From Crambe crambe (lineage: Eukaryota > Porifera > Demospongiae > Poecilosclerida > Crambeidae): DNA of 64,000 bases. Below are positions 25,209 through 63,700 of this stretch, in pieces. Made by a program: the position numbers and the translations under genes. Each line of letters starts with the position of its first letter. The first letter of the stretch is position 1. Location of the stretch: NCBI GenBank assembly GCA_963924555.1, contig OZ004586.1, positions 7,956,501-8,020,500 on the forward strand, written 5' to 3'. The notes below the pieces were generated by a model. The model was not told the origin of the DNA. It worked only from the letters and a program-made list of their open reading frames with translations, and did not search any database.

Positions 25209-25305
25209 ATTTGTGGCTATGATGTACGTAACTCCCAATCTTTGCAAATTTGACTGATGAAATGATAGCCTTGCAGTGTGAATTATGTAGGCTGTATAAG
25301 GTGTC

Positions 25306-27414: not shown

Positions 27415-27981
<567 letters not shown>

Positions 27982-28071
27982 GGCTACTTGTGGTTAGCTA
28001 ACTCTGATTTTCTTATGAAGTAAAAAGTTTATAGAGATGCTGACTGATGAAATGGTAGCTAGGACAATACC

Positions 28072-29876: not shown

Positions 29877-30152
29877 CTAGGGCGGGGGACTAGGACCAGA
29901 AGACCCATCATCATCACTACTATCTGAGTTGGAACTCTTGAACCTGGATTTTCTGCTGCGATGATGTGGGCGAAACTCAGGAGCATTTTCTTCACCTTCT
30001 TCAATCACTTCTTTAATATTGGATGGAACGGCAGCATTGGTAAGAGCATCTTCTTTCTTTTTGATTGATTTTTTATCAGGGGACATCTCCACTTCATTGT
30101 TGATCACTAGTAGCACCACAATCACAGCCACAAAGTAGCACGTTGCATTCAT
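29877..30152 (-). CDS. Secreted repeat-tail protein 4, shortened
   Basis: 91 residues: signal peptide (TCYFVAVIVVLLVINNEVEM), pro-region like genes 1-3 (KKEDALTNAAVPSNIKEV, EEGEENAPEF), then HHRSRKSRFKSSNSDSSDDD and an early stop after GPSPPP. The RVRR site of genes 1-3 is missing (PHHRSRK instead). The repeat tail continues at the DNA level down to about 29750, but in another frame (PSSRSRSNSSPG units), so the gene differs from its relatives by a frame change near a C run. It may be a decaying copy, a length polymorphism or a sequencing error. The promoter still matches the family. Confidence 0.6.
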   Translation of the reverse strand: MNATCYFVAVIVVLLVINNEVEMSPDKKSIKKKEDALTNAAVPSNIKEVIEEGEENAPEFRPHHRSRKSRFKSSNSDSSDDDGSSGPSPPP

Positions 30153-30250
30153 ACTGGTAACTCCGATCTTTAGCTATAAATTTGCTTGTGAAGTGTAAAG
30201 AGTTTGAGATGTTGACTGAGTAAATGATAGCAGAGAAATGGAAATGTGCC

Positions 30251-38106: not shown

Positions 38107-41100
38107 GGGCAGGAACTTTATAGACTATCTTCCCTGAATTGTGGTATCTATAGAACGATTCTTGGAAGCCCTTACTCTTTACTCACTATCTTGGGGATGA
38201 ATTCTATTCCACCCACTAAGTGCATTTTGTTGTGATAGTGTTATGGTGGAAGTCCCTCAATTATCCATGACATCATGTCTGCCATAGAGAAACAATGTCG
38301 GTTAATAACGATGATGTCATTGGGCAGTTTTGAGGCTTTGTATCAGGTATCAGTAATGCAAAGTGGTATGGTGCAAAATAGTAATCTCAAAGTGTGGTCT
38401 AAGTCTCTACATTAGTAATCTGGGTCTTAATTTGCATATGTCTTTGTATATTAAGTCAGTAATCTTGGTCTTTGTATGTTTATTAAGTCGGTCTCCGTAT
38501 GTAAGTCAGTAATCTTATATTAAGTGGTCTCTGTATGTTAAGTCAGTAATCTTGGTCTCCGTATATTAAGCTCGGTATCTCTGGTCTCTGTATGTTAAGT
38601 CAGTAATCTTGGTCTCTGTATGGCTTAGCCTTTTGTGCAGGTATGGATTTACTGAGCATGTGCAGAAACAATACCACGTGGAAATTGATCATGAAGTATT
38701 CATGACTTGAGCATGCGATGCTCAGATGCTTAGATCGCATACGTAATTATGAAAAAAAAAACAAAAAAGAAAAAAGATTCTTGTGGATGATGGGGAAATT
38801 TAGGACCTGTGAATTAATGATATTCATGGACACTGAGTAACAGTTGTACCTGGTAATTGAATGAATATTGTTTAAAGTTGAAATAGACTTTTAGAGCTGA
38901 TATTCATTTGTCTTCAAGATTTTGCTGTTGAGTTATTTAAGTGGGAGGCAGCTGCATACATAAGAAAGCTGTAATGCTTACCTGGATATGCCAATCCACT
39001 TGCCTAGCATATAGAACAGTCATGACCTGAGAGTCAGCTCACTTGCTTGCTGAAATAATTAACTTAAAGAGATTTATTTAATGGCTAGTGGTTTAGAAAT
39101 GAAACTGCAGAAGTTTGGATAAACTGTTTGTGTGATGAAGGATGCATTGTTTTCATAAACTATGCTAACCTCAGAACTACAGTAATCAGAGATGACTTCA
39201 CTCTTAAAACCCTTTCATCTTGACAGCAGCTTGATGTAGGGATGTTGGCCTTTCATCTTGACACCAGCTTGATGTTATTCTTCCACTGACTTCAACCCTA
39301 ATTTTTCCCCAGCACAGATACTGTTTACTTTCATCAATGAGATGCACTTATAACGGGTGATTTCATTCACACATCAAAGGGTATTTGTGGTCAACCAGCA
39401 TTATATTGACCACATCAAAGGGAAGATGTTCATGAAGGCATAGTGGGCCCCCATGGTTCTGCTTCAATGCATGCACGCAGAGTACATGTAAAGGCTATAG
39501 TCCAGTTCTTAGATGCACTGCAATTCTGTAGAATATTTCACTAATTTTAATTCTACTACCATCAATTGGACATTTTTTTTGTGGCCCTGTCTCAGCGACG
39601 AAAAGTTATCACACATGAAAATAATAACCTTTAAAAGCTTTGTTTTTTTTTTACTTAGACGAATGATATTCATAGCATGTCAGGTATGCATTTTGAAGCC
39701 CAATGACTCAAAGGTGGGTATAAAACTGATGCGCAGCATATGCCTTAATGAAGCGATACTGTTGTTGTTGTTGTTGTTGTTGTTGTTGTAGACCCAATCA
39801 TGCCCTGAGGCTGAGAGGTGAAATAAGGAAGTATGTGCTAGAAGTGTCATTACAGCTGCATTAGAGATGATACAGCTTAATTAATTGACCAAGAAGTCGC
39901 TGAGTGTTAGCCTAACCCTCAGCGACTTTTTGGTCAATAGTATTATTGTAATGTTATTCATAGCATGTAGTAATGTAGTAATTAAATATTATTGAAACCC
40001 AACGTGTAATATCGCTCATGGTTGGGTATAAAACTGTGTAACGGGAACTCTCGAGCATCTTCAGCAGTAGATCTTATCCATCAGAAATTTTGAATTTTTG
40101 GAAAGCTCTAGAGAGCTTGCAGCTGGTTCATTGAGAGTACCATAATTTCTCGTGTGTAATTGGAGGAGGGCCTGACCCACCCCTCTGCCAATTATGGCTG
40201 AGAAGCTGAGGGTGCTAATTAGTGATATTTGCCCTTAGAAGATATTGGGGGATGAAATAGGTATCTTTAATTAGAGGGTCTGAACCTGATCACTTCCTTT
40301 CAGATGGAAACTGAAGATCCCAATACCATAGCCCAGCACCTGCTTCATATAATCCAAAATTTGACCCATAGGCTGAGCCGCCTGGACAAATAAAGTGTCT
40401 ACCATGATGACTTCACTCCATTTTGAGCAGTGCTAGCTGTTATTTGAATATTTGTTCCTCTTGGTGGGACAGCTGAGCACAGTCTATAGTGGGTACATGT
40501 AAAGTTCGAAGTGCTCACTGCAATTCTGTTGTAGAATATTTGTTACTACCCTAAATTGGCATGTAGTAATGTTGAAACCCAAAAACTGGAGCACAGTGCA
40601 CAACTAATTGGAAATCAAGCTCTTAAGAGCTTACAAATTTGATGAATGTAACAGTGACTTCCTTTTCAAATCACTAATGGAGTAATGTTATTCAAGGCAT
40701 TCAGTTAATTAAATATTGTTGAAACCCAACGTGCAATATCACTCATGGTTGGGTATAAAACTGTGTAACTGGAAGTCTTGAATAGCAGATCTTATCCATC
40801 ATTAGATTCTGAATTTTTGGAAAGGTCTGAAGAGCTTGACAGCAAAAGTATTATGAGAGTAGCAGGGTTCAATTTTAACTGTCTGTCATCTATTTCTTCT
40901 TCATATTCTTCAACTTTGCTACTTCTAGGACTAGAATGTTAACGTTAGTCACGAGTGTTTGATGAAACCCAACGTTTATTTTCTCTCAAGGGCTCACTGC
41001 AATTCTGTTGTAGAATATTTGTTACTACCCTAAATTGGATTCATAGCATGTAGTAATGTTGAAACCCAACGTGCACTATCATGTATAAAACTGGAGCACA

Positions 41101-43506
41101 TTGGAAATTATATCCATTCAATGCTCTTAAGAATCTGCAAATTTGATGAAAACTCTGAAGCAGTAACTTCTTTGATTAATAGAGTAATATTATGCAGTTA
41201 ATTAAATATTGTTGAAACCCAACTTGCAATATCACTCATGGTTGGGTATAAAACTGTGTAACTGGCACTCTTGTCCATCATTAAATGTAGATTTTGAATT
41301 TTTTTGAATTTTTGGAAAGCTCAAAGAGCTTGCAGCAAAAATATTATGAGATTGGGATGTATGATGTATCGTATCATGGTAACTTTACTGGTGGGTTCAA
41401 TAGTATTATTCATATGTGATCAAGGACCAGTTGTAGGACTTCACAATGTGGACCAGGGTTCCCCTAGCTGTACAAACAGGTTCCTACTGTACTTTCAAAC
41501 ACTTTCAGAGTGCTTAAGTATATTCATGAGAGTATACTTTCAATTAGTGCCATAGACCCAGCCCACTTTCTTTGAAGTTTCTTTATCCAAAACAGAGTGG
41601 CCCTCTGACAGTGTGTACATTTAGTATTCTGGAGGTAAAACTGAATTACATTGTGTTAAATTATAAAGAATTCATAGCATTCAGTAATGGGCGTGAAACC
41701 CTGCATTGATAATCTAGATTCAGGAGCTTTGTAGTCAAACCTCTAAATGTCTACACTTTTGGACCAGAGAAAAGAAGGTGTGTGCTTATTTCAGAGAGAG
41801 AGAGTCTTCTGATAGATGAAGTAATGTTATTCATGATATGTAGTAATTAGTCTGGTGAAACCCAACGTGCACTATCACTCATAGGTAGGTATAAAAATGG
41901 TGCATGAGCACGTGCTGTGATGTCTCTAGTGTAATTCGTTTCTCTATGATTTCATTGAAAACGTAAGAATTTTTGGAAAGCTCTGAAGAGCTTGCACCTT
42001 ATATGTAACATTATTATTTACTACTTGATCCTATCAGAGGATTTCAATTTTCTGAAGAGCTTGGCTTGTTCTGGCAATAATAGTAAGCCATGTTTATACC
42101 ATGCACACCCGGATTCCAACCTACCTAATTGATGTGGGTTGGGCTTAGTAAGGGATTGTCCCATATCCATAGGTAATGATTTACAATTTTTGGAAAACTC
42201 TAGAGCTTGATAAAAACAATTCATGTTCTATGGTACGATAGTTTTGCTTTTCATTCTTCTGAAACATCAATAGTGAGTGATACATATTTCATTGTAAATG
42301 TTTCTATCTGTGAATGTTAACGTTATTCATGAGTATTTGATGAAACCCAACGTTTATTTCCTCTCAAGGGTGGGTTTATAAAGGAGGTGATGGATGGCTT
42401 AAAGTTGATCAGGTTGATATAGTCCAAATTTTGCAAGAATTTTCGGAAAGCTCTAAGAGTTTATTCACGTGATATTTTTCTCACCTTCGTTTCTGTTATG
42501 GGGTTATGTTCACGACTGGTTGGTGAAAACTAATGTGATATGTGTTTCCCTGCAAATTAAAGATGAATTGTGTTTGGGCTGATTGATTTTTGAAAGCTGT
42601 TAAGAGCTTGCTCACTTGAGTGATGAATGAGGCCATAGCTAGTCAAAGTGCATCTTCTTCCTAATAATATTCATGAGTGGACTGTGGGTCTATAGAATCA
42701 AGTTGCTCTATATCCAAGATGAATAGACATCCACGTTGGATAGAAAGCTAATGTTCACCTTTTTTTTTTTTTTAATAGAATGTTAATAATATTCATGAGG
42801 TTGGTAGGAAACCCAATGTGTAGATCCTGTCAATGGTTGCTTTATAATGCAGCTGCCAACCTTACCCTCTCAAGTCCATGTTTCTTCAAAAATGTCGAAT
42901 GTGTTTATTAATAATTTTTGGAAAGCTCAAAGAGCTTGGAAATGTGTACATTGTGAATTCTTGTTGATCCCTGAGGGTGTTAATTGTGGGTGTGAATGCG
43001 TGTATAGCAAATGGTGTGTAGGTGGCTTTATAACGGAGGTGGCAATGAAAGTGATAATACAGAGGTATGGATCCCAACCCCCCCCCCCCCCCCCCCCCCC
43101 CATCCAAAGCAATGAATCTTCGAAGAACGTGCTGACTCTGAAAAAAATCTCCAGTAAATTGAACACCACTATTGCAGAATTTTATCAACACTTCACCATA
43201 GAAACCATTTGCTACTGCCTGATAATGCAGAAAATTCAACGGCTTTATGATTCTACAGTTAATTTCCCACCTATGGGGGGGGGGGGGGGGGGGGCAAAAA
43301 ATTTTTTTGCACATTTTGCATGGTTTTTGTTTTCCCCGTCCCACCCATGAAACCCTGAGGAATCACCCTTGAATGTGTCTCAAGTAATGTTGGCTAGCTG
43401 TATAGGGATTGTAGTCACTTGAGTTTAGAATGGAAGTTCTAAAGATCTCATCACTGGATCGAGATTGGAAAATCTGTAGCGTTGGCAGTGATAAAGCTTC
43501 TACATC

Positions 43507-43549
<43 letters not shown>

Positions 43550-46500
43550 ATGATTGAAGTGACTGTTCCATATGACACTTTAATGGAGGAGGCAGCTGAA
43601 CGTAAGACCATAAAGTATGCTGATCTCCTGGAGACTTTGCGTAGTAAAGGATATAAAGGTTGTCTACTAACTGTTGAAGTTGGATCACGTGGCCTACCAA
43701 ATACATCGAGTTTTACAAAATTAAAAGAACATCTAGGCCTAACAAATAAGATTACAAAAGAACTAATGATTAACACTGCTAAAGGAGCCATTAATGAATC
43801 TTTCTTGATCTGGAAAGCCAGAAATAACAGAACACAGTGACATTACCATGCTCATCATGCTTCACTGCCCCCCCCCCCTCTTTAATTCTTATTTTATTTT
43901 TGTGTGCGCCAGGTAATTGTGCATGGCTCTCGTCAGGCCATTTGACAAAATGATCCTGGAATAACTCACCCCTTATTTGTATTCACCACAAATCAAATGA
44001 AGAGTTATATATATATGAGAGCTGAAATGGTGCATTTGGAGAGTTCTTAGACCAGAATCTTGTGGTGTCTATGAAAAAGATTCTTGGGAGCCCTTACTCT
44101 ACTCCACCCATTAAATGCGTTTTGTTGTGATAACTACAACAATATTGTCTTGTGGTGGAAGTCCCTCAATTATCCATGACATCATGTCTGCCATAGAGAA
44201 ACAATGTTTTAATAGTGATGATGTCATTGGGTAGTTTTATCAGGGTGGGTCTGTTATAATTTAGGTCTGGGTCTCTGCTAGTGTACAAGTCAGTAATCTA
44301 GGTCTCAGTGTATTAAGTCAGTAATCTTGGTCTTTGTATATTAAGTAAGTCTCAGTAATCTAGGTCTGTGTATTAAGTCAGTAATCTAGGTCTCTGTATA
44401 ATAATTTATTGACACCATAATTTAATCCATAATATTGGAGAACAGTGTGCAGGTATGATTTACTGAGCATGTGCAGAGACAATGCCACAGAAATTGGAAA
44501 CTAACTTTTTCTTGAAGTATTCATGACTTGAGCATGCGATGCTTAGTCACATACGTAATTATGAAGAAGAAAAACAAAAGATGATGGGGAATTTAGGACC
44601 TATGGACTAATGATATTCATGGACACTGAGTAACAGTTGTACCTGGTAATCTATGAATCAAGAATCAATGCTGGAATATTGTTTTTTAAGTTGTCGGCAC
44701 TGGAAGTGTCGGTCTAAGGGGGAAAACCGTGCTATAAACCATTATCTCCCTAGTATGACTTGGTTTTATTTTAGTGAGGTATTATAAAGACATCCAAATT
44801 TTGAGGAAGGTTTTTAGGATAGTTCGTTAATTTATATCAAAATACAGAAACAACTTTCTTCTTTAATGACTCAATAGGTTTTAAAATTCACAGTTGGTAA
44901 ATGTAGTAAGCAAGACATTAATTCACATCAAAATGCAGAGACAACTTGAAAAGGAAATGACAAGTGGTTGTGTGAGATTTTGTGGCTGGTGGTTTTGAAA
45001 TGAAAGTCCCTCTAGATGCATTGTTTTCAAACCCAAATTACTCTCAAAGAAAATGAATGAATCTGAGAGCTCTCATGGGGACTTCACTAACTTCCATGTG
45101 CTTCTGAATATATGAATCTCTTTTGTGGTTGAGCCAGTTTGATTAGGGGGTTGTTTACTGCTATGGTTGGGGCCTGGGGACGTGAATATAAGGGACAATA
45201 CCTTGTTTATCTCTATCGGTAACTCCAAGTCTTTCCATGTGACTCAGTAAACTGATAAGTGAGATAGAGTGAGAGGAGTAATCAAGAGGGTATGTCCCTT
45301 CCTTCATTAAGTGGGTAATGAACAAAACAGTATTCATAGCATGTATTAATTAATCAGGTATGCGTGTAGAAATCCAATGTGCTCTACTACTCATGGGTGG
45401 GTATAAAAAGTATACCTAAAGAAAAATTGAAGAAGCGTGCATGGAATTTGGAAAGCTCTGCAACATGGATGGAATTTGAATTTTTGGAAAGCTCTGAAGA
45501 GCTTGCATCCTTCTCTGTCAAAACTGTATTTTATTTTGATTTCAGTATCAGTTATGCAAGGTCATGTTCTTGTGCTTGAGTAACTGTAGTGTTATCATGC
45601 ATGGCGTGCATTAATTAGGGCAAGTGAAGTCGACCCTATGAGGGAGGAAAGCAGTATTTGTCATTGCAGTTCCTTTCGGTGGTAAACAAGCATACGCGCT
45701 TGTTTCACAATGTTTACATTGGCAAATGACATATTTACTATATAGCATTGTTATTGCTAACACTGAAATAGTTTTTGAAAGCTCTTAGGAGCAAAAGCGC
45801 TATAATTTGGAAAAAGTGGGTTTCAGCCTAGTACTACCAAGTATTTGCTGATTTCGTTTCTGATTTTACCGGAAATAATAAGAACTTAACTTGAGTATCG
45901 GCTGATCTCGGAATATTAGATTCTAGCAGCCTTTCAAAACTGGTGCACTGGGTTATGAGTACTTGCCAATCTCAAAATATTTGAGCTTGGAGCCTTGATT
46001 GATCTCTGAACTGCAAAGCTGTTTGATGATTGAGGAAACAAATATTCATAGCGTGCAAGTATGCATGTTGAAACCCAACGTGCACTACCACTCATAGGTG
46101 GGTATAAAACTCAGTAACGACCAGACACACACCCTTTGTGGCAGCTCTGTGGGTTCATAAGTGGAAAGCTCTGAAGAGCCTTTTCTTTTCTCTGATTTTA
46201 TTTTTGCTCTGATGATAGTGAAGAAATGATTAAGAGCTTGCTGGCAAAGTCACTATTGTTGTATGCACATTCTTCTGGTTGGTCCCTTGCAAACACAGTG
46301 ACATCATTGGCTATAACTTTGCTGGCCACAATGCTTTGCATTTTCTTAGTAGAGCGTAGCATGTAGATAAGCATGTTGAAACCCAACGTGCAGTACCACT
46401 CGGGTGGGTGGTACTGTTGGATGTATTCAACAACGATCCAGTCATGAAAATGTATTATTAAAGCTCTGAAGAGCTTGCAGCTTGATGAATGTAAATGAAC

Positions 46501-48731
46501 AATAACAACAAAAACAAAAACAACAAAAATAAACAACAAAAAAACAACAAAAACAGAAACAACAAAAACAAAACAACAAAAACAAAAAGCAATAACAACA
46601 AGCATCAGTAATGTTATTCATAGCATGTAGTAATGCAGTAATTAAATATAGCTGAAACCCAACGTGCACTATCACTCATTGGTGGGTATAAAAATGGCGT
46701 GTGTACTTGCTGATCTCAATATTGTGATTTCAATTCTTCTTTATGGAAAAACGTAAGAATTTTTGGAAAGCTCTGAAGAGCTTGCACCCTTTGATCCTAT
46801 CCGAAGATTTATAAAGTAATGTTATTCATAGCATGACGTGATGTACCGTAAATCTGGAAATTTTCGCGTAAAATATCTTCGCGTTTTATTTTTTCGATGC
46901 GTTTATTATTCGTTTTTTGAATCACCCGCGAATTATTTTCAACAATGAAAATTTCGCTACTAAATCCAGCTGGAGAAAAATGGCGGTAAGTGCTAGCGCA
47001 GAGTTCCAGATCACTTGCTGTGTTCGTGGCTACCATGTGTACCGTGACATGTGGGATGCCAGTCTAGGTGAAACGCTAGAGTGTGAGGGAGCCAACGAAT
47101 GAAAAGGACAGGTACACGGTGGCAGTGAAGAAATCAGGTACGATTGTAGGACGTGATCGAAAGACTATCTCGAACTAACTAACTCTGCCTCTACTTCACA
47201 ATTCGCTCGAGTAATAGCCCGAGAAGGAACAGGGGGATCTGGAAGACCTTCAAATACTTGGAGAGCTAGAGACTAGTACGCAATGCAATGTGCTTCCTAC
47301 CGTATATATTTTCAATATTTTAATAATCCGTTGTAGAAAATATTTCACGTGTTTAATTTTCGTTGTTTGAGCCAACCGCGAATTATTTTTAACAGCGAAA
47401 ATTTCCAGATTTACGGTAGTATGTTACTGAAGTATGCCTGTTGAAACCTAACGTGCACTGCCACTCATAGGTGGGTGCATTTGAAGCTTGATGTATTACA
47501 TGACTAGTGGATGGAAAGTTCTGAAGAGTTATCTGTCAATGCTGCCTAAAAGCACTAGAGTTTAAGGCACTAATGTCTTTTTTTGCCTTCAGTGTGTGTG
47601 TTTCAATTAGGAGATGATAAAACCACTCTCACCGTTAATGTAAATTCAAGGTGGCCTGTACCCTGTCCCTGGCTCTTGATCCAGGAACCTAGCTAGGACT
47701 CGTATGTGGAGACTTCTGTGAATCAATCACATTGTGGCGACACTGACTTCATAAAGAATTCATAGTATGTAGTAATTAGTGTCATTTGAAACCCAATGTA
47801 TACTTCCACTCATGTGACTTCATAAAGAATTCATAGTATGTAGTAATTGAAACCCAATGTATACTTCCACTCATATGCGAGTATAAAACTCCAACTGCTG
47901 CATCAAGAAACCTCCTCTATAGTACTTTATCTCTTGTTAAGATTTTAAGTAATTTTTGGAAAGCTCAAGGAGCTTGAAGTCTTCCTTGTTCTCTGATAAA
48001 AGCTGGATGTTCACTAACCCATAGCTCATGTGCACTGAGTTGTGTGTCTGTCTTACATCTACCACGCACAGTCCATAACAGTCTAAATGTTGTGTGTGGA
48101 GAGAGAGAGAGAGAGATAATGTTATTTGTAGTACAATGCGCACCACCACTCATAGGTTGGTCCTTTTGGATTGGGTCACGGTTAGTATATCCTTAAGAAT
48201 TTTTGGAAAGCTCAAGAGAGCTTAGCTTGTTGCTTGATATAACATTAGCCTATTAGAAAGCACCAAAGTCTCTGTTACTGTGTGTGCTAGAACAGCACTG
48301 AAGTTTAACCAATTGGAAAGTCTTTTTTGCCTTCAGTGTGTGTGCTTCAATTAGGAATTAAGGAGGCCTGTGCCCTGGCTCTTCACACATGTGATCCAGG
48401 AACCTAGCTAGAGTGGAGACTTTTATGAATCAATCTGTGGTGACACTGACTTCATAAAGAATTCATAGTATGTAGTAATTGAAACCCAATGTATACTTTC
48501 ACTCATAATTATGTTGAGTATAAAACTCCAACTGCTGCATCAAGAAAGCTCAGTTTTATATTATCATACTTTTTTTTAATTTTTGGAAAGCTCAAGGAGC
48601 TTGAAGTCTTCCTTGTTCTTCGGTAAAAGCTGGGTATTCACTAACCCTCAGTTCATGTGTGTACTGGATCATGTGTGTCTGTCTTACATCTACCATGCAG
48701 CCCATAGCAGTTCGAGTGTTTCAACTTCAGT

Positions 48732-48774
<43 letters not shown>

Positions 48775-51700
48775 TTATTCGTAGCATGTATGTAGCAATG
48801 TGCACCACCACTCATATGTGGGTTTATGGATTGTATACTTAAAGAGAATTTTTGGAAAGCTCAAGAGAGCTTAGCTTGTTGCTTGATTAAACATTAGCCT
48901 GTTGGAAAGCACCAAAGTCTCTGCCTTTGATGTGTGCTAGAACAACACTGATCATAAACCCAACACTCACTAACTGCTTGGCTAAACCCAACATTAACTG
49001 CTGATGCTACACTGATATAAACCTGCTGATTATAAATCCAACACTAACTGACTCCAACACTAACTGCTGATGTGCTACACTGATATAAACCCAACACTAA
49101 CTGAAACTGCTGATGTAGTAGTCATACCCTCAGGCCCTGTCTCTTTAATAGAGAGAGAGGGGGGCCTGATATCCTATCCACTTCACTGCTTGTATAAAAA
49201 TGATGCTGAAGTTTTGATTCCGATTCTAAGTCTATTGCTATATTATCATGGAGTGGGAGTGGCTTTTCTACTGCTAGAGATGGAGAAGAAAGCATCAACT
49301 TCTGATCTGTTTATTGTCATCTAACTAGTTAGCTCATATCTATTGATCTTTTGTCAATCGTTCATTTTTTCTGCACATATAATTTGAGGTATTGCACAAG
49401 AAGTGGATATGGACTCTTTTTGGGTACGAGACTAGAGGTCAAAGGTGAATTGGTTGATTAGAATGTCATAGTTGTGGATGAAACCCAAATACCCAATGTG
49501 TGTATGCTCTCAAGGGTTTCTTTATAAAGCACCAACAGGACAGGAAGTAGCAGAATATGCTAATAATACACTTTACTGAGTGAATTTTTGGAAAGTTCAC
49601 AGAGCTTGAGATGAGTGATGTTTCACCATATTTATTGCTTACATTCTGCCAGCATAGTTTTGGGAATAATAGCTCTATCAAAGCAGTAATGCTGGCATAA
49701 TAGGCTATTGAAAGTGAACTCCATGGTTGTATTTATCATGTGTGCCTACACTAGCTAGCCTGGCTTGACCAAACTTGTCTGCTTGGTGAGATAGAAAATA
49801 ACTATTTATGATACACAATGACATCAGCCAAGAGCATAATAGGTCGGTAAAAACAAGAATAACGACTTTATACAGCTGGAATTAAAGTAAGCAAAGAAGC
49901 ATAATGTGCCAGTCCCTATTCATTGATCTTTGCAATGCCAGAACATTATGTTAGCATGCTTGGGAGTACCTATATATTATGCTTGAAAGTATGCTGGCAT
50001 AAATAGGCTGGTCCTACTCCAGATTCAGGACTGTAGTTCCCCAATGCATGCAGGAGCGTGGGTATTGGGTGAAGTAATAATTTTGATCTCAAAAGTGGAA
50101 ATGAATATTAGCCAATATTGAATACATAAGTTCTGTTTCTCAAGTGAGTTCTTGAGATTGAGCACTATCTTAAATCTGTTTCAATTTGCCTAAATTTGTC
50201 CATGAAATATTAAAGTGGTGGTTGAAAATTTTTGTGGGTTTGAAGAATTTAGAAAAAAAAACCACGAAAATGTTACCCTATCCCATGTCTAGACTGCTTT
50301 AAAGGAAAGGTCAAAGTGCTTGCACATTTTGCTATTTAATTTTCACTCACTTCCCTCGGGTGGTGATAAAGGAATGTTAAAAGTATTCATAGAGCTCTTG
50401 TTCAAACCCAACGTTTGTAACTTCTCAATGGTGATTTATAAAGCAAGGGATGGATTTTACTCCAATCCACGAAAAGATCGATCGAACTAGATTTATTAAA
50501 AAATGAATTTTTGGAAAGCTCAAAGAGCTTGCTCATCTGATGAAAGTGAATACTAGCCTTGCGCCAGGCTCTCGGTAGTCTGGCGTAGCCAGCCACACCC
50601 CGAGCACGAAGCGTGAGGGGAGAGTCTGGTAACATACAATACTGCGAGTTGTCAGATTGGAATTTCCATCATGCTGGTAATTGCGGTAAGTAATAAAAAC
50701 ATGTGGTTATATGGAAAGCAGCAGCTGCAGTGCAAAGATGTACGTATATCTGCTAGCCTACGGTTGGCTCAGATATAGAAAAGAAATAACTAAGTTTATC
50801 AAAAGCTAAAGGGAGGACAGCAAAACACAAGCTCTTCCCAAATCCAGTTGGGAGCACAGCAAAAACATCCCTGCCAGATAAAATTGGATCACCACTTCCA
50901 ACTGTTCAGGCCTTAGTGATGGATAGCCCAAATTCAGGGCAGCTTCATTTGCTCAGTGCAGTGCACTCCTTAGCAGCTGTCTAGTTGGCTTATTGCTGTG
51001 CATGCCTGTGGTGTACACTGTGGTTAGGTAATGATATTCATGAGTAGCAGATTTTCTGCAACTTCTGACAACTCAGGGTGTATTGAATGTTTCCAGACCA
51101 CCTCGCGCTCGGGGGTGTGGCTACGCCAGACTAGGCTCTCGGGGAGGGGGAAGGAAAAGAGAGCCTGGTTGCCACTATCTGCGCATGTGCTGATTTTTCA
51201 GCTGCGAATCACCAAGGGTGTGCTATAAAACGTCATGGCATAATTAAACATTCCAAGCGGTTAATACAAATAAACATGGTTTCCACCACGAGGGTTTGTA
51301 GTGAACAGCAATAGAAGTGTCAGTGGTGATAATCCTTGAGCAGCTGCTAGAGATATCATCTGTCGACCCTGGCATCTCTCCTTATATATGTGCAGAAACA
51401 GATAGTCACAGCACATTTTTATAATGAAGAGAGTCATATAGTATCGTCAAAACATTAGGCTGCACAACCAAGCTTGAAGTCCTTGAAGAAAGGAATAGTC
51501 TGATAACATAGTCTCTCTTGCCATAGCCTGTGGGAAAGCACATAATGAATCCTTTCTGTCGAAAATTGCCCATCCACTTGAGACACACTCCTGTAAGGTC
51601 CAGCATTTCGAGGGCGAAAAGACAACTGAGCAGAATTGAAAGTATCACTAGCATTAGTAGACATTTTGAGCAACAAGTGTACTTTGACCTATGACGTTTA

Positions 51701-54700
51701 GTGTTGTGGACATACAGGTAAGTATCCAGATTCTGCAAGATCGTGGAAAAATCAGCGCATGCGCAACCAGGCTCTCTTTTCCTTCCTCCCCTCCCCCTTC
51801 CTGAGAGCCTGGCACGAGGCTAGCTAAGCTAATACATTTCCTTGAGATGTGGAATGATGTTATTCATAGAGCTGTTGATAAACCTAACATCCATGTGTCC
51901 AGTAGAAGCCTTGGCTAGGTGAAGTTTATTTGCCCTTTATCTGTTAAAGAAACCCAATGTCTATGGAGCACGGGATGGTTTTAGGACAGATATATAGAAA
52001 ACTCCAAGACCTTGCTCAATTGACGAAAGTAAAGTGAAGTGAGCTCGTATTATTATTATTATTATTATTATTATTTATCTATTTTTTCACCTTCCTTGTG
52101 ACAGTAGAATGTTAATGTTATTCATAGAGCTGTTGATTAAACCCAACAACCATTTGCCCTGCATGTAGCAGGTGAATAGGTGGTGTTCTCATTCTGTGCA
52201 GCAAAACAGGGCAAATCATAACACATTTCAGTTCACCTGACATTTGATGACATAGCACTTGATTTGTACTTACTGATCAGCTGCTATACTTTTTTCTATT
52301 GCGATTTTGTCCGACCAACTGAAAAATGAACTGTCAAAATGCAAATTTGGCCGGACATTTGTCCTGTGTCAGACTGTTATAATTAGCCCTGCAAAATGTA
52401 GTCTACACAATGTTAAGTACAATTTTTGGAAAGCTGAAAGAGCTTGATAAAAGGCTTGTTCTATCCGGGAGGAGGGAAGGGGTGTCTCAGGAAAATATGG
52501 ATTTGGTACATTCATGATGTACTGTTTAGTGTTCAGGACCAGATGAGTGAAGTCAGACTCATCATAGATCAACCCTGGCCTACGAGAGGTCATAGCTAGT
52601 AGATTGAACCAACCCTAGGTCACAGGCTCATGGCTAGTCAAAGTGTATATATTTCCTGTTCTAGAATGTTAACTTCCTCTTAATGGTGGGGGGTAAGATG
52701 GCTCAAGTTGTAAGATGAATTGAGAAACCTTGCTCTTAATGGTGGGTGTGATTTCAAAGTGTTTGCTCACCTGATATATGGTTGAGTGTATTATTAGTCT
52801 TTTAATGATATTCATGATCCAGTCAGAGTGGTTGATGAAACCCAATCTGTATTTCCTCTCAATGGTGGGTATATAAGGCGAGGGATTGCCTAAGTTCTCC
52901 GATGTTCAAATGTGTTCAACAAATTGTGTGAATGTGTTTAACGAAATGTGTAATTTTTGGAAAGCTCTGAGAGCTTGCTCATGAAAAATAAAGAGAAATG
53001 GAGGCCTATGGCTTAGGTGAGGCTAGGGTCATACTAGCTAAGCTAAAGTTTTTTACGTTTCCGGAATGATGTTATTCATAGAGCTGTTGATAAACCTAAC
53101 ATCCATGTGTCCAGTAGAAGCCTTGGCTAGGTGAAGTTTATTTGCCCTTTATCTGTTAAAGAAACCCAATGTCTATGGAGCACGGGATGGTTTTAGGACA
53201 GATATATAGAAAGCTCCAAGACCTTGCTCAATTGACGAAAGTAAAGTGAAGCGAGCTCGTATTATTATTATTATCATTATTATTATTTAATTGTTATTAT
53301 TATTATTATTATTATTATTTATCTATTTTTTCACCTTCCTTGTGACAGTAGAATGTTAATGTTATTCATAGAGCTGTTGATTAAACCCAACAACCATTTG
53401 CCCTGCATGTAGGGTTTATAAAGCAGGTGAGCAGGTGGCATTCTCATTCTGTGCAGCAAAATGTAGTCTACACAATGTTTAGTACAATTTTTGGAAAGCT
53501 CAAAGAGCTTGATAAAAGGCTTGTTTAATTTGGGAGGAGGGATGGTGTGTCTCAGGAAAAATGTGACTTCGATTGGATTTGGATGTACTGTTTAGTGTCA
53601 CTTCCGGTACTGGACCAAACGAGTGAAGTCAGACTCATCATGGAGTTCAGAATGAGCTCTTTTTGTATAAGCTTCTATCCTAGTAGATTGAGCCAACCCT
53701 GGCCCAGGAGAGGTCATAGCTAGTAGATTGAACCAACCCTCGATCATAGCTAGTTAAGTATATATATTTCCTGTTCTAGAATGTTAACTTCCTCTTAATG
53801 GTGGGGGGTAGGATGGCTCAAGGATTGAGAAACCTTTCTCTTAATGGTTTGGGGGGGGGGGGGGTAAGATGAATTGGTGTGATTCCAAAGTGTTTGCTCA
53901 CCTGGTATATAGTTGAGTGTATTATTAGTCTTTTAATGGTATTCATGATCGAGTCAGAGTGGTTGATGAAACCCAATCTGTATTTCCTCTCAATGGTGGG
54001 TATATAAAGCAAGGGATCGCTCAGGTCCTCCGATGTTCAATGAGTTGATTCCAAGTTAAATCCAAATGGTACTAAATAATTTTTGGAAAGCTCTAGGAGC
54101 TTGTTCACATGATGAAAGTAAAGAGAAATGAAAGTGGCTTAGGGGAGGCTGAGAAGTATTCACTTCCTGTTAATGCTGTTGATCACCAATGTCTAAACAA
54201 GGAGTGGGTTAAGATGTTCAAAATAAAGTGAAGACCATGCATAGCTTAGCTATAAGTCTTGTTGTGTTGTTGTTGCTGTTATTTTGATAGGAATTTTTAA
54301 ATATTAGAATGTTAATGTTATTCATGAGTGTTTGATTAAACCCAACGTGTGTTTTGTCTCAATGGTGGGTATATAATACAGGGGTTGAGGTGAGTTGTCC
54401 CTTAGATTCAGTGTCTGTTATCCATGTTGGATAGGACCATCGTTATCTCTACAATTTTTGGAAAGCTCAAGGAGCTTGTTTAATTAAGAGAAGCCATAGA
54501 TATACTTATGTGTTAATGTTATTCATGAGGGGTGTGTAGGAAACCCAGTGTGTGTTACCTATCAATGCTTTGTTATATAAAGCAGCTAGCTTGGCTGTCT
54601 CTGCTATCTTTGTTTTGAGTTAAGTATCGGATGGATACATGTACTCTCACTGAGAGAATTTTTGGAAAGCTCAAAGAGCTTGATTTATGAATAAAGAAAG

Positions 54701-57700
54701 TACCTTTTATAATTTAAGTATAGTGGGCACTTAATTGAGAGAGGTTTCCATTCTTCAGAAGTTCAATTGGTATTGTTGAAAAATTTTGGCTGAATAACAA
54801 TCATGACGAGACTTTCACTCATGATTCAATTCGATATGACAGTAGAGGCAGGTTACAATTTGCTGAGTCAGCAAAGGAACTGACCAGTATAATAATTATA
54901 CTAAATTCTGGGCGGGGCACCCTTTTCGGATAAAGAAACTCTCAAAAGAAAGTGGGCTGGGTCTATGGCATTAAGCTTTTACATAACTTCAAGGTGTCAG
55001 TGGAATTCCTAATTAAGTTTCTAAATGATATTCATAGAGTAGGAATGTACTCTGGTATGTAGCCCAAACCCAACATGCATTCCCACTCATGAGTGGTTAT
55101 AAAAGCCATAGAGTGTGGATGTCTGTTCAAGTACAGGTTCTTCGTTCTTCAAAGAAGATGTGTAGATGTAGTAGCTCACTGTAGCTTTTTGAGACAATTT
55201 TTGGAGGGTCCCTAATAAGCTGGGACCTGCTCTTATTAAAAAAACTGAGTATGTAAGGGTGTTCTCTTTGAATTTTAATAAGCTTTTTCCACATAAGCTG
55301 TTGTAGGACTTTTGAAAAAAACTGTTGGGGTGAATGAGTTACATGGTTTTTGGAAGACCTATATTGGAACTTTGCTTTGCTAGGGTTGTTGACATTACAT
55401 CTATCTCTCTCTCTCTCTCCACTCATTGTAGGTAATGCAGCCATGTCTCTAAGTAATGCTCCAAGGTTGGAGATAGTCGAACAACCAAAGTCTGTAAGTG
55501 ACTGACACCTGACATTTTTGGCAAATGTGTGGTCATTTTGTTTGTCAGGACAAAAGTACTGGTCAAAATGCACACTGATGCAATGTCCAGTTAAATGTTA
55601 GGACAAACTATATTTTGTGGGGACATCATGTCAGGTCAATATCAATTTCTTATCATGAGCACTGTCTCTCCTCCCTTAATTAACAGGCACACTTCTCTGT
55701 CCCATTAAAGACCCCCACCCTCTCCCTGAATGGAGACACTTAGGTTTTCATGTGTAAATGATTTATTTATTGTATGTATGTGTGTATGTAGCGTGGATTT
55801 CGTTTTCGTTATGACTGCGAAGGGCAGAGTCATGGAGGACTCCCAGGGGAGAACTCGGAGAAAAACAGACGACAGAAAACCTATCCCACTGTCAGGGTGA
55901 GTCAACAAACAAAAGAAATGCATTTTCTCCCCCTCTCTATGACTACTCAGTATTTTTCATATACCCTCCCTCCCTCCCTAGAAAGTAAGACCTCTGTTGA
56001 ATATATAGTTTCTCTAAACTTCTTCCAGGAGTAAGATTTTGGGTTGAATGATTTAACTCCTTCCTCTCAGGGCAGTTAGACTTATTTTGTTCATTAGTGT
56101 TATACCAATTGAATCTTCCCTCCTTTTCTTCGGTCTGTAATGCTGAACTAGTTAGCTTTGTCTGAAAGGGTTAACCCCTCCTTCCCTCTCTCTGGGCAGT
56201 GTGGTGAGTTAATTAGTATTCTAAATCCCTCTCTCTTTTTTTGAAGGGGTTAGTCAGTGCTGTGCTTCTGGATTACTAGCTTAATAACCCTTTCTTTCCT
56301 GGACAGTATGACTCCTGTTGAATGGTCAGTTAGTATTTCGCTTGTCAACAGTGAAAGTTGTACCATCAACACTGAAAGTACTTCAGAATAAACACAATCT
56401 TTAGCCTGTAGATTTCAGTGGTTTTAATGCATCAAGCCGCTATCTCTGTGTACTTGAACTCAACTCTTCATAAAGGAACGATTTTTTTAGTTTCGTTATT
56501 GCCACATGCCCCTGGGAATTAACTTCATCTGAGAGTTAAAGTTGATATAACAATATTAATGATGAAAAGCTCCTGGCATTATGTAAAATGGGATGCTTTC
56601 GGTGCACTTAAGCAAACTTGAAGGTGGACTCTCTTATACTGTTATTGGATTGAAGTAAATATTCTAACTGACAATCTTTTTTTATAACCTCCCAATTTCA
56701 TTAGACCAGAATGGACATGGAAATGGCAGCACAAATTGTCCACAAACAATCTTTAAAACTTTGAACTACTGTTAATCAATTCTCTCAAATGATCATGTGT
56801 TATGTGTTCTCTACCTCTACACCAGATTTCAGTCATCAGTTATCAGTGTTTCTCACAGTATACTTAAATGCAGGGTGGGCAAACACCCAAAGAAAGTGGG
56901 CTGGGTCCATGGCAAATTATTATTTTCATGAATATAGTTTGAAAGCACAGTTAGGGAAGACTCCGTAGCCATTTTTTGAGTGCTTAACTGAATGTTTTAA
57001 GAAGCCCTACTTACCTATACATACATGTGTATAACTAGTTCCGTCTCTTGCCTGCCGTGGGATGAGACCTTTTACCTTCCTTGTCTCCTTTCCCTACTAA
57101 GGGCAGTGGGACTTCCCAGCCTCTATTATTATATCTAAAGGAGGCAAACATTTCCTTTCTTGCCATAATGGCATTAGGGTCACTATAGCAACTGAAAGAT
57201 GAAAGGGTGGCCTTTCTGATATTCAGTTTGGATGATGAGGTTTCCATGTCTGCAGATTCTTCCTGGTGATATCACTGGCTATGGTGCTCCTAGGGATGTG
57301 GTATCACCTGGCTGTGGTGATATCACCTGGCCAAGTATAAGAGTGGGACTAGCCTGTGCCGTGCATGTGGAATACCAGCAAGGGAACTTTTTTGCGGTTT
57401 GCATTTTGAGAGGAGCTTTCGGAAATGATGTGATTAACTTCTCTGTGAACTCTCCCTTGTCTCTGATGTGTCTACACCCTGAGAGACAAGAATCAGAGGA
57501 GGACTTTTAGATCTAACTGATGATGGTGGAGACTTCTGAAAGGATTCTTATAAACAATGTCCAGAGACCACTTTATGCAAAATGCACAAGAAATTCCCCC
57601 TGAGGGTTGATTTAGGTCAACCAGGTTACAACCAGGCTTTAGTGCTATATAGGAACCACTGACTGAAATCAGTTTTCAGTACAAACCCTCAGGCTACATT

Positions 57701-60700
57701 ATCACATACCATATTTGATGTGTAACCCCCTACATTACTGCATGCATGCAGAAGCCAATTACGTAATGGAAATACATTAGTTTTCATGTAGTGGCGGGGG
57801 ATTTAGATGTGGTTTTATTTGGCGGGACTTGGTTGTCTATTGAGTTAAGGGATGTGGTATGGAAGTGGAACTTACTTTCCCCCCCCCCCCCCCCCCTGAA
57901 TATCAGCATAGTGTGGGTAGTTTCTCTGAAATGATTAAGGTATAGCAGGATTTGTCAATGAAGTCCTTTTGTTATTAGTCCACAATTGCCCTAGAGAGTG
58001 TTACATGGACTATTTCTCTGTTTGTATTTCAAAGTACAGCAGTCTTAACTTTCTCCTTGATAATAGGAGCTGTAACTAACTCAAGATGCCTACTGAAAGC
58101 GTGGCTTCTCTTTATTCAATTAAGCTAATGCTGGCTTTAATTTCATTAAAGTGTTGTTTACCAAGTAGGATGCTGGAAGGGACATGATGCTTCCAGCTGG
58201 GGAGGGTACATGGCTCGCCAGATGTGGTTTCAATGTTGTCTGGGGTGTGTGTGTGTTGTAATGTTAGTTTATTTCCCACCAGTCCAAGTACATGAAACCT
58301 TAAAAGTTGTCTCGCTTTTCCTCCTAAATTTGTATATTTAGACCTGGTGAAAAAATACCCTTATGACGCCACATGCAAAGACTGGACCTAAACAATGTTC
58401 CTTATATGGGAATATAAACATTTTTGAACAACAATGACAACAACAACATGGTCCATTAATGATGTGTAGATTCAACTTTCATGTTTTTTTTTTTTTTTCC
58501 CCCTCATGCATTAGCTGGTTGGTTACCGTGGGAGAGCTCGAGTGATGGTTTCCTTGGTGACGGACACAGATCCTCCGATGCCCCACGCCCACTCGATAGT
58601 GGGTAAGAACACCCATGATGGACGGTGTATTGTGGAGATGGGGGTAGAGACAGAGATGTATGCTCAGTAAGTTCAACACTGCACTGACAAACTATGGAGC
58701 CTTATATTTCCTGGGTACATTAATACACATCTCTTTGGCAATAAGACACAAGGTGTCCTGATTATTGACTGTCCTGGCTATTGGGTGTCCTGACTATTGG
58801 CTGTCCTGACTATTGACTGTCCTGATTATTGACTGTCCTGGCTATTGGCTGTCCTGACTTTTTACTGTCCTGACTATTGACTGTCCTGATTATTGACTGT
58901 CCTGGCTATTGGCTGTCCTGGCTATTGGCTGTCCTGACTATGTATTAACTACTGATGCTCTAATGAGAATAGTGGGGAGTAGAATTGTAGGGGTGTTTAA
59001 GGAGTGATTGAGGTAAACAAATAAGTGGTGATCGTGAGCCATGCATAGATGCAGAACTTTAACGTGCCTCAAGAGATAGATAAGTGGGTTCTATTGTCAT
59101 AGGAAATGGTCCATCTGTGACCTAACTCCTGCCTTTTGTGGTATTGTATTGATTCTGTGGTTTTAGAGGCTCAGCCTGGCGCTGTGGTGTGGTGGGACCT
59201 GTGGTGTGGTGGGGAGATCCCTGTAGATGTACCTCCTGGCTAAGTTGATCAACAGGAAAGCTAGTTGATCAACAGGAAAACCCTCATGTTTAAGGGTTAA
59301 GTGGCCATATCCTCCAACAACTTCCAGCAAGACTGTGTAGTGGTTTAGGTGTAGCATCCAGCCGGTCCTTTCCCTCGCATTAATAATGTTCCAGATCATT
59401 AATTCAAATGAAAGGGACGTTGAAATGGAACTACTGTTTAATGGTTGATCCAATATGATAGCATAGCACCATAGATTGATTTTAATTCTCATATGTATAA
59501 TTTCGTATTAACTTAACATGTTGCACTTTGAACCTAGTGACATGCATGATAAAGTATTCTTGAAGGTCAATCAACCTAGGAAGATCAAATTAACCTTTTT
59601 TAAAAAATACCGGCCTCTGTTGATATTTGATTGTTTGACGTCATCTATCCCTTGGAATATCCCCTCATTGACACTCCAAGGGAATGCTAGGGATGGATGG
59701 TCACTCAAGGACGGAGAGAGGGCTGTCATACTTACAGAGGATTGCAGGATAGTTGAGGGAGAAGATTTTGCTTATTGACATAACATACCACTAGCCATTG
59801 TTCAGAGCAATAGCTAGTGGCCTCTTATGTAAACAAGCAAAGTCTTCTCCCTCAACCATCCTCCAAATTAGGGACTGGCACATTATGCTTTTTTGCTTCC
59901 CTATTATTCTATTCTTTAATTCCAGCTGTATAAAGTCTTTTGCTGACCTATTATTCTTTAATTATGCTCATAGCTGATGTCATATGTATTGAAGACTATA
60001 TAAATAGCTATCTGTAATCTCATTAGCAGACGAGTTTGGTCAAACTAGGCTAGCTAGTATAGGCACACATGATAAAATCATCCATGGAGTTCACTTTCCA
60101 TAGCCTATTATGCCAGCATTATGCTTCCTGCTTTGATAGACTTATTATTCCCAAAACTATGCTGGCAGAATGTGCCACCAATCCTCTGTGATTGATACAC
60201 TTCCTACTATTGTGTAATAACTCAGTGAAGAGTTTAGGGATAGCACCTGGGGCTTTCCCTTGGCCAGCTCTAAGGTTAATTGTATGGTATGTGTGCTATC
60301 TTGCCTTGCCACCTGGGGCTTTCCCTTGGCAAGCACTTGGGGATTAATGGTTGCTATGCTTACAGGTTTCCTAACATGGGCATCTTGCATGTCACCAAGA
60401 AGAAGGTTCCAGATGTGCTGACTCGGCGTCTTCTGCAGCAGATGAAGTTGCAGGACAGTCAGCTGGAGAACTTGGAGGACGATGTAGAGAAACGTTTTAC
60501 TGAGGGTAAGGAAATGTAGGACATTACGTGCATAATGTTTATGTACATATAACAAAATGCATGTACATGTTCATGTATACATGTTGTGTACATGTTTACA
60601 ACATGTAATATGACATGTGTATGGTACAGTATAGCTATGTAGATACTGTGTATATTAAATGTTACACAGGTATACATGTTGTATACATGTAGAAGAGCAT

Positions 60701-63700
60701 GTAAATGTTACATGTACGTACACATCAATGAATAACCATTTTATGTACAGCGGAGGTGTCAGAGGTCAAAGTGCAGGCAGCAGCTCAAGCAAAGACAATG
60801 AACCTGTCTGTAGTTCGACTGTGCTTCCAAGCATTCCTCATGGATGAACATGGTCGCTTCACTATCGTTGTTGACCCTGTCTTCTCTCACAAGGTCTACG
60901 ATAGCAGTAAGTCCCTTCTGTTGAGTCTACAGAACTAACCATTTCCATGAAACATCATTAATGTTTGGCTTATTATTAGTGGTGTACTATGAGAATGTAG
61001 ATTCATCAAAACATAACGAATGGGGTCATGCCCCTTAGTTGATTGTCTCATTACCCAATCCAGAGGCTCCCTCAGCTGGTACACTAAAGATTTGTCGGCT
61101 GGATCGTGCCAATGGCAGTGTGAAAGGAGGGGACGACATATTCCTTCTCTGCGATAAAGTCCAGAAAAGTGAGTCAATACGTTTTTAGGAAGGTCACAGA
61201 AAATTTTAATTAATGCCCACCACTTAGCTTTCCTTTCTTCATAGTAGCTTGCTAGAAGATTAACATTGACAATGTACATGCTCATTACTCCACTGTTAAT
61301 TTCTTATTAATCCACACTATTAGTCCTGATTAATGCCCATCACCAATTCTCTCTCCCAGATGACATTGAAGTCATCTTCTATGAGGAGAAGCAGGATTCT
61401 GGGATGAATTCCCTCCAACCATGGACTGCTAAGGGCCGTTTTGGTCCCAATGACGTCCACCATCAGTATGCTATCGTCTTCCAGACCCCACCCTTCTACA
61501 ATCTTGCAGTGGAGCGCCCTGTGCAGGTCATGATAGCCCTTAGGCGGCCCTCCGATAGTGAAGTCAGCGAACCCAAACCATTCCTCTATCTTCCACAAGA
61601 ATTTGGTAAGTTTATAACTATGATACCCCTTACCAAGTACAGTTATACATTTGTACATGGTTGGTGTGATACATATGATAAGCTTGCGTGATTGTTGACT
61701 GTGTACCTTACCATATGCATGTGACATGCTTGTATGGTATACTTGCACATGCATGTGACATGCTTGTATGGTATACTTGTACATGTGACATGCTTGTATG
61801 GTATACTTGCACATGCATGTGACATGCTTGTATGGCATACTTGCACATGCATATGACATGCTTGTATGGTATACTTGCACATGCATGTGACATGCTCATA
61901 TTGATATAGATGAGGAGCGTATTGGGCAGAAGAGAAAGAAGAAGGTGCAGCATTTCAACAGCTTTTTCGGTGACGGTTCTGGAGGAGGCTTTGGCAGTGG
62001 GGGAGGAGGAGGAGGAGGTGGTGGTGGAGGGTTGAACTTCTTCTCCAAAGGTACGTATGTATGTGCCGCTTCTATCCAGAGGCAGCAATATGTTACCATG
62101 TGTCGTTCAGTAGTTATAACCTCCTTTAAAAAAACCTTCAAGTTTCATTTTAATAAATAATTATGTTTATTCTAAATAAAACAACCAAGTAGGGATGGGT
62201 GTGTGTGGTTCCAAAAATGAGAGAGTTAAGTAACCCCTTGCCCACCAGCAACCAAATTTCTATAACCACACCCACCACACTCACACTACCAAACTACAAA
62301 CTGACTATCTGTGCTTCGCTCCCAATTGAATACCTATAGCTCTTCCTGGCCTGTCATGGGGAACTTGTATCAATAATTGACAAGTTGGGACCTAGCAGTT
62401 TGGAGATGAGTCCTTTAATTGTATAGGAGTTAAAAAGATTGGTCCTACACAAAAGTCCTTTATAATGATTTAGAGGTTAATTATCAGAGTGTGCTTTATT
62501 TGGAGGTTTCACTCTTTGACTCTTGTAGGTTTTGGTGAAATGTCGTTTGCGAATTTCTTTTCCAAGGAAGGGGGTGGGGGAGGAGGGGGTGGAGGGGGTG
62601 GAAATGGGAGTGGCTACTCCTCGGGAGGTGGGGGAAACACTGCAGCTGTATTTCCTAATAGCGGGTAAGTCCCTGTTCTTAATTAAGTTTTCAGCTGATT
62701 CACACTTGTTTTTTTAACCCTTTCATTTCCAGCATGTCAGGGATGGATGACTACATGAACTCTGACCCCAATAGTATGAGTAATAGTTCTGCCTTCAGTC
62801 AGTCTGCCCACGGAGGGGGAGGGGCAGGAGGTGGGTCCTACAGCTACCAATCAGGAGGCAGCAATAGTTACTCTGGAGGAAGCACCCAGAATCCTCAGAA
62901 TATGGTGTCCTACAGGTCAGTACAGCTCTTGAGAACCCTTACCTAATTTCACTTTTGAGTTACTTCATGTGACGACCCTTTACCATTTAGGCCTGGTGTC
63001 CAAGGCTACCAACAGCAGCCTGGTTTAGGGCAATATCAGCAACAGCATCATGGCAGTGGCTCTGGCTATAACATGAGCCATTCAAACTATGGCCAGTTCT
63101 CCGGAAATACCCTACAGGTGTGACCACACCTTACCATATTTTGTGTTTGTCACTTTGGTGGATGTACACTATAGGGACGTGGTGCAACTAGTAGCACAGG
63201 CAGTATGCTGCCTGAGGGTGGGAGTGTCAAACAGGAGAAGATGGATCCTGAATATGGCGACGATCCCATGGTTGAAAGTAAGTCCTCCACGTTAAGATAA
63301 GTTGGAGAGAGAGAGAGAGAGTGTGGAAGTGTAGGGCTAGAGAGAGAGACTTCCCCATAACGGTGCATTGTGGTTGTCAAAGCTCCTAGCTATTGAAGTA
63401 CAAGTAATGTATTACTCTTCTCTAGCAGATGGCAGACCTCCAAGAAATGATGGAGCTCAGGGGAAAGGTAAGGGAATCAAACCAGCATTCCTTGCAGTGT
63501 TATATCTCATTCCAATTCCTCATACAGTTCTCATGGATACTGAAGACTATGAAAGTGGGTTCCAAGAACTGGAATCAGGAATAGTATCAGGTGAGTATCT
63601 CCAGAGGCATGCACTCTCTCTTTTTTCCGCTGTTCATTCTTTTCTGTCTTGCTGTTTTCTTTGCAGGTGAGGCTGAAGGCCGTAGTGACCGTGCTGATGC

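Follow-up and report, generated by a model that had tools for sequence, protein, structure and literature searches.

The Sm-class RNAs known to us have fixed bodies. Natural U7 carries a single fixed arm. Spliced-leader (SL) RNAs are marked by an invariant leader and a splice donor, neither of which is seen in the genes described here. Base pairing underlies most of the known functions of this class (PMC13158664). The HSURs of Herpesvirus saimiri are non-spliceosomal Sm-class RNAs, and HSUR1 pairs with mRNA through variable stretches (PMC13158664). Engineered RNAs combine an antisense sequence with SmOpt (AAUUUUUGGAG) and the U7 end (PMC11232981). Nematode SmY and SL RNAs are short Sm-class RNAs encoded by gene families, SmY having twelve genes in C. 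elegans (PMC11229312), and a spliced leader of ~37 bp has been described in a glass sponge (PMC10282587). In nematode type I piRNA clusters, each mini-gene works independently through snRNA-type transcription factors and gives a short RNA of its own; C. elegans has >15,000 such separate clustered loci, which are associated with SNPC-4 and yield capped small RNAs (PMC11822377). In the present study we analyse a stretch of 64,000 nucleotides of the sponge Crambe crambe (OZ004586.1, positions 7,956,501 to 8,020,500; hereafter the window), part of contig C9 in our numbering of a 143-Mb genome. It holds a tandem array of short units that resemble small nuclear RNA (snRNA) genes.

The array units share with the U1, U2 and U5 genes of this genome the layout and spacings of the proximal sequence element (PSE) and TATA box, a canonical Sm site and a 3' stem-loop, but they are far shorter than spliceosomal snRNAs, lie in large arrays and have no fixed 5' sequence. 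Like U7 and U7-SmOPT, they would have the plan of a short RNA with a 5' antisense arm, an AAUUUUUGG(AG) Sm site and a 3' end structure, whereas the site of natural U7 is given as AAUUUGUCUAG (PMC11232981) and nearly each array unit has an arm of its own. The HSURs are seven viral RNAs; the sponge units would instead be a hypervariable host repertoire. We put at roughly one in two the probability that the units encode a hypervariable repertoire of Sm-class antisense guide RNAs, each unit being an snRNA-type gene of RNA polymerase II (Pol II).

The repeat of snRNA-like units, first noticed in a sequence-only reading of the window, is real: exact Sm sites, PSE strings and complete units were all found. 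A window scan placed 21 exact copies of AATTTTTGG on the + strand, all within 40093-55204, and two on the - strand, both outside the range of the array. The string GAAACCCAACGTG has seven exact copies, on the + strand only, between 39994 and 46666. From a loose scan, 27 + strand Sm/hairpin-like sites were picked by eye and weaker ones (e.g. 51989, 53201) omitted. A unit was called complete if, besides PSE and TATA box, its Sm site had at most 2 mismatches over 13 bases. By this definition 18 of the 27 are complete, and all 18 have a promoter score of at least 15, a value that none of 3000 random window positions attained on either strand. The original count of at least 27 units thus stands only if nine partial or decayed sites are included. 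The units are as follows.

39995..40119, + strand: unit 1; PSE 39995, TATA 40027, Sm 40093, hairpin AAGCTC/GAGCTT
40722..40838, + strand: unit 2; PSE 40722, TATA 40754, Sm 40812
41215..41332, + strand: unit 3; PSE 41215, TATA 41247, Sm 41307
41858..41994, + strand: unit 4; PSE 41858, TATA 41890, Sm 41968
42343..42463, + strand: unit 5; PSE 42343, TATA 42377, Sm 42438 (AATTTTCGG)
42809..42938, + strand: unit 6; PSE 42809, TATA ~42843, Sm 42913
45370..45505, + strand: unit 7; PSE 45370, TATA 45402, Sm 45479
46655..46784, + strand: unit 8; PSE 46655, TATA 46687, Sm 46758
47850..47976, + strand: unit 9; PSE 47850, TATA 47882, Sm 47951
48482..48603, + strand: unit 10; PSE 48482, TATA 48519, Sm 48578
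49489..49608, + strand: unit 11; PSE 49489, TATA 49523, Sm 49583
50404..50531, + strand: unit 12; PSE 50404, TATA 50437, Sm 50506
52838..52977, + strand: unit 13; PSE 52838, TATA 52870, Sm 52952
53383..53511, + strand: unit 14; PSE 53383, TATA 53417, Sm 53486
53969..54103, + strand: unit 15; PSE 53969, TATA 54001, Sm 54078
54338..54478, + strand: unit 16; PSE 54338, TATA 54370, Sm 54453
54541..54682, + strand: unit 17; PSE 54541, TATA 54574, Sm 54657
55066..55228, + strand: unit 18, divergent; PSE 55066, TATA 55098, 67-nt body, Sm 55196, hairpin GGTCCC/GGGACC
42185..48880, + strand: partial or decayed sites at 42185, 42584, 45769, 46156, 46451, 47506, 48198 and 48847, and a ninth at 52421; in these the promoter or the Sm site is absent or damaged

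Some similar units differ in their bodies. Unit 8 resembles unit 4 in its promoter and 3' end, and unit 10 is near-identical to unit 9 in its promoter and downstream stretches, with unlike bodies in both cases; units 13 and 15 are 93% identical across a 165-nt promoter region. The AAGCTC/GAGCTT hairpin, proposed as the common unit end, needs correcting for the last unit (Sm site at 55196), which has GGTCCC...GGGACC and a longer body. That unit (55066-55228) retains the promoter and Sm site of the array and may be a distinct Sm RNA.

Promoters were compared with seven snRNA genes of the same genome (two U1, three U2 and two U5). Genome searches gave three matches for U1, four for U2 (one of them damaged), two for U5 and one for U6; U4 was not searched for, and the third U1 gene (L001), the damaged U2 (L007) and U6 (L008) lie outside the set of seven. 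Against the string AAACCCAACGTG, the PSE-like elements match at 12 and 9 of 12 positions in U1, at 9, 7 and 7 in U2 and at 11 and 9 in U5, so that one U1 gene has AAACCCAACGTG exactly. The distance from PSE to TATA-like box is 31-34 bp in the seven genes, and that from box to RNA start 28-31 bp. Nearly all array units have the same PSE-to-TATA distance of 31-34 bp and the same layout as U1, U2 and U5. In the third U1 gene, ACCCAACGAG and TATAAAA can be seen by eye on the reverse complement, and in the single U6 gene no such PSE/TATA pair was shown by the same scoring. The Sm site of the genome's U1 is AATTTTTGG and that of U2 is AATTTTTGA. An element resembling a distal sequence element (DSE), TTATTCATAG, was read off the units and reaches at least 8 of 10 positions in 70 of 80 units, as against 4 of 80 shuffled upstream regions.

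Both marks of an Sm-class snRNA gene, a PSE at a set distance from the start and an Sm site with a 3' stem-loop, are present in the units. Together with the shared layout and spacings, the identical PSE of one U1 gene and the Sm site in common with U1, this argues that in anatomy, as far as sequence tells, the units are snRNA-type genes. The enzyme is probably Pol II, since Pol III should terminate at the TTTTT of the Sm site. As a separate observation, the damaged U2 copy (G000:C11:5699682-5699860) has its 5' part replaced and by eye no PSE upstream, and an intact U2 lies nearby.

The family extends well beyond the window. The Sm site with the first hairpin arm (AATTTTTGGAAAGCTC, at most 1 mismatch) occurs at 140 sites genome-wide, and the reversed pattern at 0. 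The largest array seen spans C3:6.547-6.607 Mb and has 46 units with a promoter score of at least 15 in a 70-kb stretch; among the matches listed, smaller groups lie on C11, at C3:7.14-7.17 Mb, on C1 and on C16. An exact promoter pattern has 54 matches in the genome (control 0). A further array on C8 (L055, G000:C8:7939501-7946500) contains nine units with the same promoter and another tail, AGCCTAC...GTAGGCT, which occurs exactly eight times genome-wide (control 0). Most units of this C8 class have an additional upstream element, ~AAGTATGTAAGTGGGTGGAGCTAC, immediately 5' of the PSE.

Promoter and Sm site go together: of 37 exact promoters, 35 have an Sm site after them (24/25 on C3, 5/6 in the window, 6/6 on C8), a linkage free of selection bias because promoters and Sm sites were not selected together. 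Three lone promoter sites (L056-L058) were inspected, and two have an Sm-like site downstream. In viral contigs, with a slightly different Sm pattern and distance from those of the genome test, none of the 25 promoter matches has an Sm site after it. One viral-contig match to the unit pattern was found, without a promoter; the C3-class pattern gave no match in the viral contigs searched, and the prokaryote genomes searched gave none to the unit patterns.

The units have constant ends and a variable middle. The window and the fetched loci gave 114 distinct sites, of which 84 have a promoter score of at least 13. As 3-7% of random positions reach that score, the stricter value of 15 was used, leaving 81 units with 80 distinct bodies. 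With the nine on C8, the tally is at least 90 complete mini-genes among ~150 sites; they are spread over several arrays and carry three or more kinds of 3' hairpin. Over the 80 distinct units the positions of AATTTTTGGAAAGC (Sm/AAAGC) carry 1.7-2.0 bits, a value partly due to construction because 13 of these bases, with at most 2 mismatches allowed, served to select the units. The arm carries almost no common information, ~0.01-0.26 bits per position between about TATA+14 and Sm-6; of the five bases just 5' of the Sm site, four are A/T-rich. The distance between TATA+31 and the Sm site is 19-67 nt, with a median of 32. In 1035 pairs of C3 units, mean identity is 0.85 in the promoter, 0.74 in the Sm site and tail, 0.59 in the distal flanks and 0.53 in the arm; arms compared with shuffled arms give 0.52. 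Arms also fold like shuffled arms, and nothing in this points to a conserved 5' stem-loop. One subfamily (C3 19507, 32960, 38106 and 48718, numbered from C3:6542001) has a comparatively conserved arm, ~CTACCACATGGAGTGTTGTTTT, and may have a fixed partner.

The tail was examined in 22 C3-kind tails, hand-chosen as alignable, with 500 shuffles. Paired cells make up 93.4% of the stem, two-sided cells number 17 against 5.4 in the shuffles, and on these two measures and on the covariation score 0 of 500 shuffles were as high. Sliding the partner strand lowers pairing to at most 43%. Among the six inner pairs, 29-38 is broken in 5 of the 22 tails and 30-37 in 9. On three of five measures, the C3-class tail stem is kept with compensating changes. 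Overall, the sequence evidence argues strongly for a large undescribed snRNA-type family whose ends are constant and whose arms are hypervariable.

How fast the arm changes was estimated from close duplicates. Of 76 units with enough context, ten pairs have one distal flank that is at least 88% identical, and five of the ten have an excess of differences in the arm, two of these (35661/36420 and 35661/37177) sharing a member. C3 35661/36420 differ at 9 of 26 arm positions, at 0 of 39 in the promoter, 0 of 27 after the TATA box, 0 of 42 in the Sm site and tail and 3 of 200 downstream; 45 of 150 distal upstream positions differ, where the homology ends. In their alignment the changes cluster from roughly the predicted start to a few bases short of the Sm site. 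C3 33940/40208 have 20 of 35 differences in the arm, 4 of 150 upstream and 9 of 27 after the TATA box, and C3 9723/13238 have 5 of 25 in the arm and 4 of 150 upstream; downstream, both pairs are unrelated (81/200 and 85/200). With the better-kept flank as clock and sites treated as independent, P for a faster arm is 9.5e-11, 7.3e-23 and 4.6e-4 for the three pairs in this order. The arm thus seems to change in local episodes and not at a steady rate, and diversifying selection, local hypermutation or gene conversion that homogenises just the flanks may each explain it.

From these features a mechanism can be proposed. Each unit would consist of an upstream element, a PSE and a TATA box, with an snRNA-type Pol II start ~28-31 bp further on. 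The product would be an RNA of ~50-120 nt, as estimated from unit lengths, in which a variable 5' arm (median 32 nt) leads into the canonical Sm site AAUUUUUGG and a hairpin closes the 3' end. Through its constant tail the RNA would take up an Sm ring and be stabilised, and the variable arm would act as an antisense guide that brings the Sm ribonucleoprotein (RNP) to target transcripts, whose splicing or expression would be blocked or altered. Duplication of units would enlarge the repertoire, and fast change in the arm only would diversify it. The SmOPT-like layout (PMC11232981) and the precedent of base pairing (PMC13158664) are our grounds for proposing that every unit forms an Sm RNP around an antisense arm of its own. 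Transcription, capping, Sm loading, guide action and the nature of the targets are what we infer from the DNA. More tentatively, and at somewhat less than even odds, the genome would encode a hypervariable library of Sm-RNP guides in which promoter and tail stay constant while an arm of ~20-50 nt diversifies fast, perhaps through an arms race with viruses or other fast-changing transcripts. If true, this would be a new way of encoding many guides, through the snRNA machinery rather than Argonaute or Cas proteins, a natural counterpart of the U7-SmOPT tools for redirecting splicing, and an RNA-guided recognition repertoire made from spliceosomal parts.

A number of results weigh against a guide repertoire. 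The DSE-like element is less secure because it reaches 8 of 10 positions in just two of the seven snRNA genes. For the tail stem, 57 of 500 shuffles have as many pairs changed on both sides and 488 of 500 as many further pair types. Arms are not less structured than shuffled arms, with no sign of selection for openness. Among the duplicates, three of the ten pairs (C3 36420/37177 and two C11 pairs) have identical arms, two (19507/32960 and 17676/23927) have no arm excess, and the arm excess of C11 6364/16151 (6 of 34 differences), the remaining one of the five, is largely one 5-nt indel counted as five. Out of ~80 arms, genome-wide target tests covered three individual arms and one subfamily string. 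Two 24-nt arms, with at most 3 mismatches, matched only themselves, their reversed controls having one match each; self targets of these two, if any, would therefore be short or imperfect, and foreign targets of the arms are possible. A BLAST search with the arm of unit 17 found only itself, being insensitive to 20-nt matches, and the 80 arms had no antisense excess against 134 kb of the sponge's own DNA. The pattern of the conserved-arm subfamily had 181 genome matches (reversed pattern, 0), and 97 of the 100 matches listed first are on C17 and C1, many spaced ~204 bp apart or at multiples of this. One such place (L054, G000:C17:2974601-2976400, 1.8 kb) consists of head-to-tail ~204-bp repeats with an open frame encoding ankyrin repeats, and the subfamily arm is antisense to their NTPLHVAA codons. 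We do not count this as a target because reversed arms score almost as well against the ankyrin stretch (13.1 versus 14.3), and it is at most a weak lead. On C1, similar matches lie near 1.65 and 1.81 Mb.

The alternative that survives best, though we still think it unlikely, is that only the constant parts matter: the units would be Sm-ring sinks or scaffolds, or snRNA-type genes that amplify with little use, and the arm would be unconstrained filler. That no arm target was found, that arms fold in no special way, and that five of the ten close pairs have identical arms (3) or no excess (2) all fit this explanation. Filler should, however, change at the rate of the spacer, and the arm is faster in the three C3 pairs 35661/36420, 33940/40208 and 9723/13238; gene conversion sparing only the arm could mimic such change.

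It is less probable again, and we would be surprised to find, that the units are precursors of short Argonaute or PIWI guides on snRNA-type promoters. The clustered, SNPC-4-associated loci of C. elegans and their capped small RNAs (PMC11822377) offer a parallel, and the arm, at a median of 32 nt, is of comparable size. The Sm site and hairpin are nevertheless kept in the array units, which implies a stable Sm RNP and speaks against such precursors. To our knowledge, nematode piRNA units have neither an Sm site nor a terminal hairpin.

Known RNA classes were searched for with Rfam 15, which gave no match at gathering score in the window or in L055-L058; unit 18 had sub-threshold matches only. 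With this result, the U1/U2/U5 promoter layout and the 3' stem kept in the related C3 class, the suggestion of an undescribed snRNA-like Sm-class family gains support, and among the papers listed by our literature searches none is about such arrays, judged by title or abstract opening. U7 was rejected because the Sm site is the canonical AATTTTTGG and not AAUUUGUCUAG (PMC11232981). That the units are spliced-leader or SmY-like RNAs for trans-splicing, a role that had been suggested for them, is very doubtful. Short Sm RNAs also include SL and SmY (PMC11229312), one glass sponge has a leader (PMC10282587), and SmY did appear in the Rfam search, but below threshold and at chance level (14.5 bits, E 0.94, and 19.0 bits, E 2.7, with a cut-off of 39). 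SmY was rejected on these scores and for want of a conserved 5' sequence; its conserved first stem-loop before the Sm site (PMC11229312) lies where the array units vary. SL RNA was rejected as well, as the units have no shared leader and no conserved position, 12 of 80 bodies being without GT and 22 of 80 without GTA or GTG.

A transposon or retrocopied snRNA repeat has equally little in its favour. Genome-wide spread, which together with target duplications would have marked one according to the sequence-only reading, was indeed found (140 sites), and L030 is a lone Sm/hairpin copy that has no promoter. The units, however, form arrays and have external promoters of their own, kept at most AATTTTTGGA sites examined (45/52 on C3, 17/21 in the window), all 50 exact AATTTTTGGAAAG sites of the C3 stretch are on one strand, and bodies are mostly unshared between units.

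Outside the array, on the same strand, lies one further gene of interest.

55801..61691, + strand: NF-kB/Rel-type gene; Rel homology domain (RHD) signature at 55801, RHD dimerisation domain 61311-61691

We take the motif at 55801 to be the RHD signature. A Rel gene fits an animal or a close relative of animals. The array had been placed in the first intron of this gene; the gene does lie downstream, and no upstream exon of it was found, so the array may be within an intron of the Rel-type gene or simply upstream of it.

Elsewhere in the window, four open reading frames (ORFs) have a similar start: 22225-22920 (+), 24690-25307 (-), 27439-27993 (-) and 29877-30173 (-). Three continue into long low-complexity tails rich in R, S, G and P, and together the four make up a small paralog family, secreted-looking and spread over both strands. 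The ORF at 11486-15247 (-) is intact, single-exon and 1253 aa long, with no Pfam domain; 21 other proteins match it at E <= 0.001 with 26-39% identity, and of the two that bear the name of a source one is called just 'hypothetical protein'.

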